DNA from: an uncultured Acetobacteraceae bacterium
GTDB lineage: Bacteria > Pseudomonadota > Alphaproteobacteria > Acetobacterales > Acetobacteraceae
DNA: 46,608 nucleotides
Direction of reading: 5' to 3'
NCBI GenBank assembly: GCA_937873095.1
Contig: CALMVI010000030.1
Span: 1-46,608 of the forward strand
Of the stretch, positions 19,834 through 40,769 are shown piece by piece. The notes under the pieces were generated by a model that was not told the origin of the DNA, did not search any database, and saw only the letters and a program-made list of their open reading frames with translations. Both the position numbers and the translations under genes were made by a program. The stretch's first letter is position 1. Each line of letters begins with the position of its first letter.

Positions 19834-20631
19834 CTAACCCGGGCAAAGTTTTTGGACGGCCATCGGTAGCAAGGCGGGGTCGCCGACTGCGACGACCCGC
19901 CCGTCGCTGGAGGCATCGAGCGCTTTCCCGCTCCAGCTTCGCAGGCAGCCGCCCGCGCCCTCGATCACCGGGAGCAACGCCGCCCAGTCCCATATCTTGA
20001 GGTCGCATTCGGCGACGATGTCGATCTGGCCGAGCGCAAGAAGGCCGTAGGCGTAGCAGTCGCCGCCCCAGGAAACCCGAGCGACGCTGCCGGCCAGGTT
20101 CCGCCAGGCGGCGGTGTTGCCACCGAGCATGTCGGGCGAGGTGCAGGACAGTTCAGCGTCCGACAAGCGGGGGCAGAGCCGGGTGCGGGGCGTGCCGCCA
20201 AAGGGGCCGCTGAAACGGGTTGGCTCGCCTGCCAGGCCGACCCAGCGTTCTCCCGTCACGCATTGATCGATGATGCCGAGGATGGGCACGCCATCCTGCA
20301 GCAGGGCAACGAGCGTGCCGAACACTGGCCGGCCGGTGATGAAGGCTCGGGTGCCGTCGATCGGGTCGAGCACCCAGCGGTGGGATGCGCCGGGATTGTC
20401 GAGGCCGTACTCCTCGCCCTCTATGCCGTGGCCGGGATGCGCGTCGGCGAGCGCCGTGCGCATCGCCAGTTCGGCGCCACGGTCGGCGAGGGTGACGGGG
20501 CTGGCGTCCGACTTGCGCTCGGCGGAGAGCGGCGTCCGGAAATAGGGGCGGATGACCGCGCCGGCGGCGTCTGCGGCAGCCAGCGCGGCATCGAGGTACG
20601 GCAGCCCAGCGCTAGAGCCTGTTCCGTTCAC
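19834..20631 (-). CDS. hisN: Inositol monophosphatase family protein, probable histidinol-phosphatase
   Basis: A 265-residue Mg-dependent phosphatase of the IMPase superfamily. Metal ligands are visible in G-E-E-Y-G near residue 73, D-P-I-D-G-T near residue 89 and the late C-D-L-K-I-W-D-W-A-A near residue 212. The W-D-x-A motif and the compact length fit the HisN-type histidinol-phosphatases, which hydrolyse L-histidinol phosphate in histidine synthesis. Inositol or other sugar phosphates remain possible. The start is a GTG at 20631 that lies inside the dispersed repeat at 20612-20715. No usable internal ATG, GTG or TTG precedes the conserved domain, so the repeat seems to provide the start codon and the first half-dozen codons. 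Confidence 0.85.
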   Translation of the reverse strand: MNGTGSSAGLPYLDAALAAADAAGAVIRPYFRTPLSAERKSDASPVTLADRGAELAMRTALADAHPGHGIEGEEYGLDNPGASHRWVLDPIDGTRAFITGRPVFGTLVALLQDGVPILGIIDQCVTGERWVGLAGEPTRFSGPFGGTPRTRLCPRLSDAELSCTSPDMLGGNTAAWRNLAGSVARVSWGGDCYAYGLLALGQIDIVAECDLKIWDWAALLPVIEGAGGCLRSWSGKALDASSDGRVVAVGDPALLPMAVQKLCPG

Positions 20632-20715
20632 TGTCGTTCACTTCACAGGCTCTAGCTCGTTTTGCGAGCATCTTCACCCGATCAGACGATTCCGTCTGAT
20701 CGGGATCTGCTCTAG
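20612..20715. repeat. REP-like repeat family 1, copy A
   Basis: A unit of about 104 bp shared with 39234-39339. It has a 10-bp inverted pair CTAGAGCCTG (20612-20621) / CAGGCTCTAG (20646-20655). A perfect 12-bp stem, CCCGATCAGACG / CGTCTGATCGGG with ATTC loop, occupies 20677-20704, and the unit ends in GCTCTAG. It fills the whole gap between the cytochrome c and hisN-like genes. Its right end supplies the cytochrome TAG stop and its left end overlaps the hisN start. The strong stem could act as a terminator. Confidence 0.85.
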
Positions 20716-21797
20716 TTGCCGTCGGCGGGCCTCGTGGTGTTCGAGGCAGGGGTGTGGACCGCTTGCGGCGAAGCGGGGCCGGGTGCTGCGGTCGTCGACC
20801 CGCCGGCCACGGGCGGCAGCGGCAGGGGTTGCTTGGCCAGCGTGTGCAGGTAGTCGATGACGTCGGCCCTGGTCTGGTCGTTGCCGATGCCGGCATAGGC
20901 CATCTTGGTGCCGGGCGCGTAGGCGCTCGGTTTGTAGAGCCACTTGTTCAGCTCTTCGTACGTCCAGTCCCCCGGCTTCCCCTTCAGCGCCGTCGAGTAG
21001 GTGTAGCCGGGGTAGCTGGCGCGCGGACGCCCGACGACGCCGTAGAGGGCCGGGCCGACCTTGTTCGCGCCGCCCTCGTTGAAATTGTGGCAGGCGATGC
21101 AGATTTTCTTCGTCAGCGCCTGGCCACGCGACGGGTCGGCAGAGGCCAGCAAGGGAGGCAGGGGCGGTAGGCCTGGTGTTGCCGTCTGCGCAGGCGTGGA
21201 CTCGGTCTTCAGCGCGCTTGCACTGGCAGCCTTTTCCTCTGCCGCGGCTTCGGCGGGAGTGGGCAGGGGCTCCGGCGAGGTGCTCAGCGTGCGCAGGTAG
21301 TCGATGACGTCGGCACGGATCTGGTCGTTGGAGATGCCGGCATAGGCCATCTTGGTGCCCGGCGCATAGGCGGCGGGCTTGAGCAGCCACTTGTTCAACT
21401 CGGCATAGGTCCATTTGCCGCTGTGGCCTTTCAGCGCGGAGGAATAGGTGTAGCCAGGGGCGCTGGCCTGCATGCGGCCGACCACGCCGTAGAGTGCGGG
21501 ACCGACCTTGTTTGCGCCACCCGCGTTGAAGTTGTGGCAGGCGACGCAGATTTTCTTTGTCAGCGCCTCGCCATCCGCCGGCACCGCCTTCACCAGCAGC
21601 GGCGCGATCGGCGGTATCGGAGCCTCGGCCGGCGAAGACGCGACCGGGGTGGGTGCATCGGCGCCCTTTATGTTCAGGGCGCTCCGCTCAAGCTTGGCCG
21701 GGTGCACGAGATTGTCGGACACGATCCCAAGGCCGACGAAAGCTATCCCGGCGGTCAGCACAGCCCCGAAGATCTTGTTGAATTCCAGACTGTCCAT
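20712..21797 (-). CDS. Membrane-anchored diheme cytochrome c with tandemly duplicated domains
   Basis: A 361-residue protein with an uncleaved N-terminal transmembrane anchor (about residues 8-27) and two class I cytochrome c domains of the c550/c552 (CycM) type. Haem-binding C-V-A-C-H is at 84-88 and C-I-A-C-H at 233-237. Axial Met ligands fall in G-T-K-M-A-Y-A-G-I at Met150 and Met299. The two domains (about 78-172 and 227-321) differ at only about 16 of 95 positions and are joined by a Pro/Ala/Glu-rich linker, so the duplication is recent or homogenised. It would carry electrons between the bc1 complex and a terminal oxidase at the periplasmic face. CycM is usually a single-haem protein. 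The C-terminal tail is Pro/Ala-rich and ends at a TAG provided by the repeat. Confidence 0.9.
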   Translation of the reverse strand: MDSLEFNKIFGAVLTAGIAFVGLGIVSDNLVHPAKLERSALNIKGADAPTPVASSPAEAPIPPIAPLLVKAVPADGEALTKKICVACHNFNAGGANKVGPALYGVVGRMQASAPGYTYSSALKGHSGKWTYAELNKWLLKPAAYAPGTKMAYAGISNDQIRADVIDYLRTLSTSPEPLPTPAEAAAEEKAASASALKTESTPAQTATPGLPPLPPLLASADPSRGQALTKKICIACHNFNEGGANKVGPALYGVVGRPRASYPGYTYSTALKGKPGDWTYEELNKWLYKPSAYAPGTKMAYAGIGNDQTRADVIDYLHTLAKQPLPLPPVAGGSTTAAPGPASPQAVHTPASNTTRPADGN

Positions 21798-22785: not shown

Positions 22786-22853
22786 ACCATGATGGTTCGC
22801 ATCGGCTCACCGGTCATGGTCCACCTCGTTGCTTCGGCGAGCAGGTTCACGCG
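22783..22853. repeat. REP-like repeat family 2, copy C
   Basis: A unit of about 70 bp beginning TAGACCATGA and ending GGCGAGCAG followed by GCG, similar to 25304-25370. GACCATGA (22786-22793) and TCATGGTC form a perfect 8-bp inverted pair. Its initial TAG is the stop codon of pheA. Confidence 0.75.
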
Positions 22854-22884
22854 TTCGGGTGATTCCACCTGTACGCAATCTGCT

Positions 22885-23796
22885 TCAGGGGCTGAGATCC
22901 ACCCACTCGTCGATCAGGCGGCGGGCGATGGAGAGGTCTGGAGGCAGAACGATGCCGGACCGCGCACGCAGCTCGTCGCGGGTGAACCAGCGGGCTTGCA
23001 CCAGCTCTTCGGTGTCGATCGTCAGCACGTCGTCCTCGGCTTCGGCGGTGAAGCCGAGCATGAGGCTGGCGGGGAAAGGCCAGGGTTGGCTGGAGCGGTA
23101 GCGGACGTTGCCGACCCGAACACCGGCCTCCTCGTTGACCTCGCGCGCCACCGCCTCTTCGAGCGACTCGCCCGGTTCGACGAACCCGGCCAGCGTGGTG
23201 AAGAGGGGAACGTCGCGAAAGCGGGCGGGCTGGCCGAGCAAGGCGCGGTCTTGGTGAACCACGAGCATGATGACGGCCGGGTCGCTGCGGGGGAAATGGG
23301 TGACGCCGCAGCCCGTGCAGGCCATGACGTGGCCCGCCGACCCGGCCACGCAGGATGCGCCGCACACGCTGCAGAACCGGGTGCGGGTCCGCCAGTGCAT
23401 GAGTCCGCGCGCATAGGCGAGGATGGCGGCATCGGCGGGTGTCAGCATCCCGCCGGCACGGCGCAGATCTTCGAACCGTCCGGGGTGGTTCGGCGGAATC
23501 GGTGCGTCCAGGCTGCTGAGATCGACCGCGACCAAGGTGCGGCCGGCGTGCTCGCCAAGGAGCGCCCAGGGGTGGGACGACAGCAAAGCCTGGGCCAGAT
23601 CGGGGAGCAGTGCACCCGGCGAAGGTGCCGGTGCGTCTCCGACGATCAGGTTGCGGGCTCGCCATACAGGGAGCACGACGGTGGAGGGGTGCGCAAGACG
23701 GGCGCTGACCTGGGCCTCGTCTTTCCGGATTGCGCCGATACGGTCGAGAGGACTGCCGGAGAAGACGTTCGGGCGATAGGGGTGAACCGGCTGCAT
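22885..23796 (-). CDS. nudC: NADH pyrophosphatase (Nudix hydrolase NudC)
   Basis: A 303-residue Nudix hydrolase that splits NAD(H) to NMN(H) and AMP and, as known for NudC, can remove NAD caps from RNA. The Nudix box G-x5-E-x7-R-E-x-x-E-E-x-G is present as G-F-V-E-P-G-E then A-R-E-V-N-E-E-A-G near residue 210. Upstream is the four-cysteine zinc ribbon, C-S-V-C-G near residue 142 and C-T-G-C-G near residue 160, with an N-terminal NUDIX-like domain before it. The S-Q-P-W-P-F-P-A-S-L-M motif after the box is specific to NudC and supports the symbol. ATG start at 23796. It lies downstream of the DUF2382 genes but beyond a strong terminator. Confidence 0.95.
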   Translation of the reverse strand: MQPVHPYRPNVFSGSPLDRIGAIRKDEAQVSARLAHPSTVVLPVWRARNLIVGDAPAPSPGALLPDLAQALLSSHPWALLGEHAGRTLVAVDLSSLDAPIPPNHPGRFEDLRRAGGMLTPADAAILAYARGLMHWRTRTRFCSVCGASCVAGSAGHVMACTGCGVTHFPRSDPAVIMLVVHQDRALLGQPARFRDVPLFTTLAGFVEPGESLEEAVAREVNEEAGVRVGNVRYRSSQPWPFPASLMLGFTAEAEDDVLTIDTEELVQARWFTRDELRARSGIVLPPDLSIARRLIDEWVDLSP

Positions 23797-39233: not shown

Positions 39234-39339
39234 CAGAGCATGTTTTGTTCACTCGCGTTCACTCCACAGGCTCTAACTTGTTGTTTTGCGAGCATCTTCA
39301 CCCGATCAGACGATTCCGTCTGATCGGGATCTGCTCTAG
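39234..39339. repeat. REP-like repeat family 1, copy B
   Basis: Second copy of the family seen at 20612-20715. The 28 bp of the CCCGATCAGACG / CGTCTGATCGGG hairpin (39301-39328) are identical in both, as is the flanking GCGAGCATCTTCA and the GCTCTAG end. The left half is more diverged. It fills the gap between convergent mmcB and the heptose-kinase gene, and its right end supplies the latter's TAG stop. Confidence 0.85.
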
Positions 39340-40709
39340 CCTGCAAGGACCTCTCCGCCCCAGCCACGCACGAGGTCCGCAACGGACGCAACAGGGGTCT
39401 TGTCGATCAGCAGGTCCGGGCGAAGCTGAACGAGCGTTTCCGTCTGGCCTCCTTCGGGGAACACGCAGATCAGGTCGACGGAGGCGAGACCCGCTGCCTC
39501 GGAGAGTGTGCGCTTGGCTGCGGCATCGTCGGTTCCTGCCGCCGTCTCGACGCCCAGCACCAGCCGGTCGCAGGCGGCACGCGCCGTGTCCAATCGGGTG
39601 CGGCTCAGCCGGTGGCTGGGCGTTGTGATCAGACCCGTCCGCAGGCCCATACGCCGCCAGCGGTCCACCTGCTCCACGGCCACCTCTGTCGCGACGATCT
39701 TGCGCAGCGCGCGGCCTTGTGGCGTCAGCATGGCGACCAGATCGGTTCCTTGGGCCACGGCCATGCCTGGCTGACCGGCAGACACGCTCATGGCCAGGTT
39801 GGCGAGCCTGACGGCAACCGGGAGTTTGAGCCCGATCGCCAATCCTGCGGCAAGAGCCGAGACGACCGTATCGGCCGACCCGGACAGGTCGAACACTTCG
39901 GTGATGGCGGGTTGCAGGTGCAACGCACCCTCGGCGTCAATCATCGAGAGGCCATCGGCGCCCCTGTTCACGATCACCGCGCCAAATCCGTGCGCAGTGC
40001 GGAGCCAGGCCGCTGCGGCTGCAACCTGGGTGTCGCTGCTCACGGCCATTCCGGTTGCCGATGCCAACTCCCGCGACGTCGGCATCGCGACGTCGGCGCC
40101 TGCAAAACGGTCGTAATCGGGGCCGCGCGGGTCCACGATCGTTGGCCGGCCTGCAGCCTTTGCGGCGTCGATGATGCGGCGGGGCACGTCGCCGGTCAGC
40201 ACGCCCTTACGATAGTCGGACAGCACCGTTATGCTGGTCGCAGCCAGGGCGTCGCCGGCGATACGAAGCATGCGTTCGGCGAGCTTGGGGTGGACGGGGC
40301 CGGTGACCTCCTGATCGGAGCGCAACAATTGCTGGCCGCCGGCGATGAACCGGGTCTTCACAGTCGTGCATCGGCCGCCCTGGACCAGCAGCCAAGGCTC
40401 CACGTTTGGCTGGCCGCCGATCAGTCCTGTCAGGTCCGAGCCCGCCTGGTCGTCGCCGACCACCGAAACGAAGGCGACTGCCGCACCGAGGGCGGTCAGG
40501 TTGCGCACGACGTTGCCGGCGCCCCCTGGCAAGGCCAGTTCGCGGTCCACCGACAGGACGGGCACCGGAGCTTCCGGGCTGATCCTGGCTACGCTTCCGA
40601 ACACGTAGCGGTCCAGCATGACGTCGCCAATCACCAGAACGCTCGCTCTAGTCAGCCGCGGGATCCCCTCGGCGAGTTCAATGTCCTGGGCTGTCTCAGT
40701 TTGATGCAT
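39336..40709 (-). CDS. hldE: HldE-like heptose 7-phosphate kinase with degenerate, shortened adenylyltransferase domain
   Basis: A 457-residue protein. Residues about 20-320 form a ribokinase-type kinase (G-D-V-M-L-D-R-Y near residue 29, L-P-G-G-A-G-N-V near residue 60) that should phosphorylate D-glycero-D-manno-heptose 7-phosphate for LPS core. The usual G-A-G-D catalytic loop reads G-S-A-D (277-280), keeping the Asp. The C-terminal half aligns with the HldE adenylyltransferase, but its H-x-G-H nucleotide site is T-P-S-H (363-366) and the K-G-x-D-Y motif is missing. It stops at G-G-E-V-L-A-G, without the usual final 15-20 residues. That domain is probably inactive. ATG 40709 has AGGCAGGGG upstream. 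The TAG stop comes from repeat copy B. Confidence 0.85.
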   Translation of the reverse strand: MHQTETAQDIELAEGIPRLTRASVLVIGDVMLDRYVFGSVARISPEAPVPVLSVDRELALPGGAGNVVRNLTALGAAVAFVSVVGDDQAGSDLTGLIGGQPNVEPWLLVQGGRCTTVKTRFIAGGQQLLRSDQEVTGPVHPKLAERMLRIAGDALAATSITVLSDYRKGVLTGDVPRRIIDAAKAAGRPTIVDPRGPDYDRFAGADVAMPTSRELASATGMAVSSDTQVAAAAAWLRTAHGFGAVIVNRGADGLSMIDAEGALHLQPAITEVFDLSGSADTVVSALAAGLAIGLKLPVAVRLANLAMSVSAGQPGMAVAQGTDLVAMLTPQGRALRKIVATEVAVEQVDRWRRMGLRTGLITTPSHRLSRTRLDTARAACDRLVLGVETAAGTDDAAAKRTLSEAAGLASVDLICVFPEGGQTETLVQLRPDLLIDKTPVASVADLVRGWGGEVLAG

Positions 40710-40769
40710 TGGCCCCTGCCTTATCGACCCATGGCGCGGCAATCAAGGCAAGAACGCCGGCCGGACCGG

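Follow-up and report, generated by a model that had tools for sequence, protein, structure and literature searches.

CcrM-associated intergenic repeats (CIR) of Caulobacter were reportedly described by Chen and Shapiro in 2003. In the account given by Delihas (2007; PMC2229807), CIR are intergenic elements of alphaproteobacteria, about 110 bp in length, in which two long stem-loops are joined by a linker, with TA at the termini and GANTC at a terminal loop; a 2024 review of MITEs calls them strictly intergenic (PMC10969869). A second group of relevance, the GTAG REPs, consists of 20-40 bp palindromes carrying GTAG at one end, and neighboring ORFs often take their TAG stop from a terminus of such a repeat (Di Nocera et al., 2013; PMC3733652). 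Some GTAG REPs are found at ORF N-termini, and the same report notes that many of these may be extragenic, with translation starting further downstream. Rickettsia palindromic elements (RPE), as summarized by Delihas, are small palindromic elements that add to coding sequence through in-frame insertion within genes (PMC2229807). The repeat family analyzed here resembles CIR in its two-hairpin plan, although it is likened to them by description, not by sequence. Like the GTAG REPs, it gives TAG stops through its termini, whereas its copies measure about 104-108 nt, form two hairpins and carry CTAG at each terminus; like RPE it is palindromic and can add to coding sequence, but its copies sit at gene ends, and the copy considered first lies between two ORFs. 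The use of REP termini as TAG stops is known from the report of Di Nocera et al. (PMC3733652), while a CIR-like family in Acetobacteraceae, with counts of how often its copies fall on stop codons, is new; a literature search, with most subscription papers outside it, returned nothing on this family or on the siting of CIR in stop codons.

The window, meaning the whole analyzed stretch of 46,608 nucleotides from an uncultured Acetobacteraceae bacterium, carries copy A of the repeat at 20612-20715, a 104-nt element with CTAG at both termini that was recognized from the sequence itself, from matches elsewhere in the genome and from its alignment with 39 other copies. Folds and the consensus structure place hairpin 1 at 20612-20655, with an 11-bp terminal stem and a small inner stem, and hairpin 2 at 20666-20712, whose interior contains a 12-bp palindrome (20677-20704). 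GATTC, a GANTC site, stands at the hairpin-2 loop on the plus strand (20688-20692). The minus strand of copy A folds with a z-score of -8.03, and none of 200 shuffled sequences was equally stable. The 40 aligned copies, drawn from 21 genomes, extend over 108 columns and have both hairpins in common, with compensatory changes on both sides in 16 of the 29 consensus pairs. The two stem-loops with a linker, spanning 104-108 nt, and the terminal T and A, kept in 78-89 of 91 full-length copies, agree with the published outline of CIR (PMC2229807). The GANTC site occurs in the hairpin-2 loop stretch of only 54 of the 91 copies, copy A among them, and is absent from all sampled copies of four genomes (G156, G186, G070 and G023). 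The host likeness extends to a single RAMA-domain protein (PF18755) that scored over the cut-off in the genome of the window, a domain which we take as a proxy for the CcrM methyltransferase; among 14 control genomes only Caulobacter matched. One departure concerns location, in that CIR are termed intergenic (PMC2229807), whereas the element ends studied here overlap stop codons. Membership of an Rfam family was rejected: no match was found in the whole window at gathering thresholds, and the one match near copy A at E≤1 was chance-like, scoring 16.1 bits where the family cut-off is 38.

In its own genome, copy A gave 88 match rows at E≤10, which merged into 53 separate places, some of them partial or belonging to a sister family, and 35 of the 53 were full-length by the filter used. 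Pattern searches of this genome for the two halves of the element returned 50 and 39 matches, against 0 for both with the reversed control pattern. Two other genomes of the same genus contained no copies of the family. Matches occurred in 40 of 200 genomes and 31 of 102 genera of a family-level sample, and in 6 of 385 genomes of a class-wide sample (own genome included in both), the listed matches of the other five being mostly of the right half only. The 91 full-length copies comprise 35 from the own genome and 56 from 20 other genomes; the 56 come from 60 regions among the best-scoring matches, with at most four scored per genome, and are thus biased toward copies like copy A. As partial, 26 of 117 rows were left out, 12 of which end on a stop too. 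At three loci (L101, L115 and L120) the hairpin-2 part is repeated in tandem (2 to 4 units), which suggests that it can multiply independently of the other half.

Copy A is flanked by two genes of the minus strand. The cytochrome c gene (20712-21797; two haem domains, PF00034 in two stretches) ends ...GGC AAC TAG, with its stop codon at 20712-20714, inside the right CTAG of the element. The hisN-like gene (19834-20631) encodes a protein of the inositol monophosphatase family (PF00459, E 1.5e-42) that resembles the histidinol-phosphatase HisN (TIGR02067, 253.3 bits, under the curated cut-off of 275.15), and its GTG at 20629-20631 lies in the left end of the element. The preliminary description, which had copy A filling the whole gap and the GTG within the left end of the repeat, is borne out on both points, as everything from the cytochrome stop codon to the GTG is repeat sequence. 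It had also proposed that the repeat supplied the stop and created a new N-terminus, and the reports on GTAG REPs offer precedents for both halves of that idea (PMC3733652). The gene pair itself is old, judging from relatives: a CxxCH-bearing ORF ends no more than 150 nt upstream of hisN at 22 of 38 distinct loci (42 rows minus the own row and 3 duplicates), with stops that are TAA in 11, TGA in 10 and TAG in 1. In one same-genus relative (L032 in G001), a different, A/T-rich inverted-repeat sequence of ~130 nt occupies the cytochrome-hisN gap, which may thus have been hit twice independently.

Where hisN translation starts can be read in two ways. After the upstream stop in the hisN frame, the GTG is the only ATG, GTG or TTG before the conserved domain, the next lying 149 nt beyond the element, and when copy A is removed and its flanks are joined, the nearest such codon falls within the cytochrome gene, 64 codons further upstream. 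Compared with homologues in relatives, whose starts fall 3 to 15 codons ahead of the alignment point, the leader carried by the repeat is not exceptional in length. Opening of the RNA at the GTG, which lies in the strong hairpin 1, is predicted to cost 21.5 kcal/mol, more than at 14 of the 17 window genes compared (range 6.8 to 26.4 kcal/mol), and no good Shine-Dalgarno match accompanies it. Capture of the hisN start by the repeat is plausible at about an even chance. If the start does lie inside the element, hisN would be a clear natural example of a housekeeping gene with a captured start codon.

The competing reading, to which we give a somewhat less than even chance, has hisN starting at a CTG at codon 10 (20602-20604, minus strand), just outside copy A, with the GTG of the repeat a bystander. 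The same-genus homologue L032 has its ATG exactly at this CTG, and the absence of ATG, GTG and TTG from the corresponding stretch is shared by 4 of the 38 relatives. In two relatives a CTG is likely to be the start of hisN, once with GGAG 8 nt upstream (L051) and once positioned one base after the cytochrome TAA (L052). Joining the flanks would likewise bring the CTG to 7 nt after the cytochrome TAG, at an opening energy of 18.7 kcal/mol, and coupling between genes, as reported, requires such short distances (PMC10666635). With the element present, opening at the CTG would cost 33.9 kcal/mol, which exceeds the value for every one of the 17 window genes compared, and coupling across the present gap is unlikely. 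CTG is also a rare start codon in bacteria. The earlier claim that hisN has no alternative start thus holds for ATG, GTG and TTG but not for the CTG, and the new N-terminus becomes one of two live readings. For E. coli and Haloferax, a spacing of ~20 nt is reported nearly to abolish coupling (PMC10666635), and on that basis the insertion of copy A probably ended any coupling of the cytochrome and hisN genes. Start capture as a general property of the family was rejected: of 12 confident own-genome ORFs leading away from a left end, 5 have the GTG in frame, no more than chance would give (P 0.37).

The stop codon is a different matter, and here the family as a whole was informative. For both ends of every full-length copy, the ORF with the highest score among those entering the element was followed to its stop, with confidence judged by codon scores that were trained on the own genome and used for the other genomes also. 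A confident flanking ORF stops exactly at the terminal TAG in 57 of the 91 copies, namely 37 of 56 in other genomes and 20 of 35 in the own genome; 19 of 21 genomes have at least one such copy, and 16 copies are without a confident ORF at either end. In 5 copies both ends serve as stops of convergent genes. By end, 62 ORFs stop on the terminal TAG and 34 stop 1-75 nt before the element; the two misfits are an ORF that reaches a TGA 38 nt into the element and one that stops on a TGA one base off. Thus, of the confident ORFs still open on reaching an end, 62 have the terminal TAG as their stop and 2 have another, whereas random insertion would be expected to give about one-third. The ratio was stable across score thresholds, from 69:7 at 5 to 54:1 at 30. 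Copy B of the window (39235-39339), of the same family, repeats the arrangement, its right TAG (39336-39338, minus strand) being the stop of the ORF at 39336-40742.

CTAG tetranucleotides elsewhere provided a baseline. They are scarce, with 89 sites outside elements in 307,901 bases of the own genome, where base composition predicts ~898. Outside elements and outside coding sequence, CTAG sites serve as stops at 16 of 63 sites in the own genome and 4 of 19 in others, and stops at element ends are enriched relative to these (Fisher test on pooled counts, 4e-7). A rougher gene-calling, superseded by the test of individual ends, had divided the 89 own-genome sites into 19 stop, 45 non-coding and 25 coding. 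With the comparison restricted to sites on a stop or shortly after one, the difference was not significant (62:34 against 21:21, p 0.13), and a preference for stops beyond CTAG siting near 3' ends was rejected.

Congeners lacking a copy were compared at four filled loci (L198, L196, L172 and L178). At L198 (G129), the G184 homologues of both neighbors share the stop position, and 60-odd unrelated bases separate them. In G184 the flanks of L196 abut with a 4-nt overlap, and the left gene has the same stop codon while the right gene stops elsewhere in the relative. The right gene at L172 (G018) has its stop at the same codon in G186; for L178, compared with G018, one flank only was aligned, away from the element. 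In all, 4 of 5 gene ends in copy-free congeners match in stop position, and all 4 of these congener stops are TGA, never TAG. As the position of the stop is shared by relatives without the copy, the alignments indicate that at those loci the stop position is older than the element, though no TAG or CTAG preceding insertion was observed directly. The data contain no empty site for copy A itself, the two genus members without the family being too divergent; its joined flanks with one CTAG kept still read AAC TAG, which holds by construction.

Together, the 62:2 frame ratio and the shared congener stops argue that stops already in place were most likely the landing sites and that the element rebuilt their TAG, rather than creating stops. 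With stops enriched, but without a significant excess over sites near stops, the plain account is that the target is CTAG-like, insertions that break genes are lost and TAG is restored on landing. The element ends are consistent with it: 85 of 91 copies retain an unbroken core GAGC at the left and 86 an unbroken GCTC at the right, whereas only 53 keep CTAG at both ends, and outer bases taken from the target would be expected to vary in this way around an intact core. Of the traits of MITEs, terminal inverted repeats (GAGCA.../...TGCTC) match over ~5 bases only, and the greater variation of the outer bases may reflect a target-site duplication of either TA or CTAG. The outermost bases would accordingly derive from a CTAG (or TA) target. 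Landing in the palindrome CTAG at a gene end would double the target bases, and with G as the first base of the element TAG would be read again on each side, keeping the stop of the gene; two convergent genes sharing one CTAG would each come away with a TAG of their own. At the locus of copy A, the element would have landed in the cytochrome TAG, immediately ahead of hisN, and pushed the genes ~100 nt apart. The left-end GTG would by chance have fallen in frame with hisN, to become the sole ATG, GTG or TTG available, and hisN would now start in the repeat, with about even chances, or still at the CTG seven bases beyond. We regard this whole explanation, with either start, as likely. A mobile repeat would in this manner occupy gene edges without breaking genes, by using a palindromic target that holds the stop and is rebuilt on both sides.

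A stronger version, in which the element homes on stop codons, integration favoring the CTAG of a gene's TAG or one shared by convergent genes, the terminal G rebuilding TAG on both sides and an outward GTG occasionally serving as a start, as at hisN, is doubtful. Somewhat less probable still is that the siting reflects selection for hairpins at 3' ends, through mRNA stability or termination, and not a CTAG target. The 34 further ends located 1-75 nt past a stop would fit such selection, and REPs are known near 3' ends (PMC3733652); it would leave unexplained both the exact stop on the terminal TAG at 62 ends and the convergent genes that end on the two termini of 5 copies, and no U-run follows the hairpins in the sequence of copy A. 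That the repeat created both coding ends, truncating the cytochrome with its TAG and giving hisN a new start, is very unlikely: both codons do lie within the repeat, the cytochrome C-terminal tail is too variable to align, so that an old stop elsewhere is conceivable, and joined flanks without any kept CTAG have no stop directly after AAC, but random truncation would stop in three frames at varied depths inside the element, against the family-wide 62:2, and the congener stops fall at the same codon. The TAG of the cytochrome gene does sit in the terminal CTAG, as first described, while the notion that the repeat supplied it is not supported. For gene callers the case carries a caution, as codons found within a repeat at the edge of a gene may not owe their existence to that repeat.

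Two other arrangements were seen. Partial copies at L088 and L125 lie inside long open frames that read through them and are possible in-gene copies. Within the window, a decayed sister copy of the hairpin-2 part (22832-22888; listed also as L089 5238-5285) carries at its end the TGA stop (22885-22887, minus strand) of the ORF at 22885-23796; TGA stands there in place of the TAG of copy A, and the stop of the neighboring ORF has outlived the base changes.
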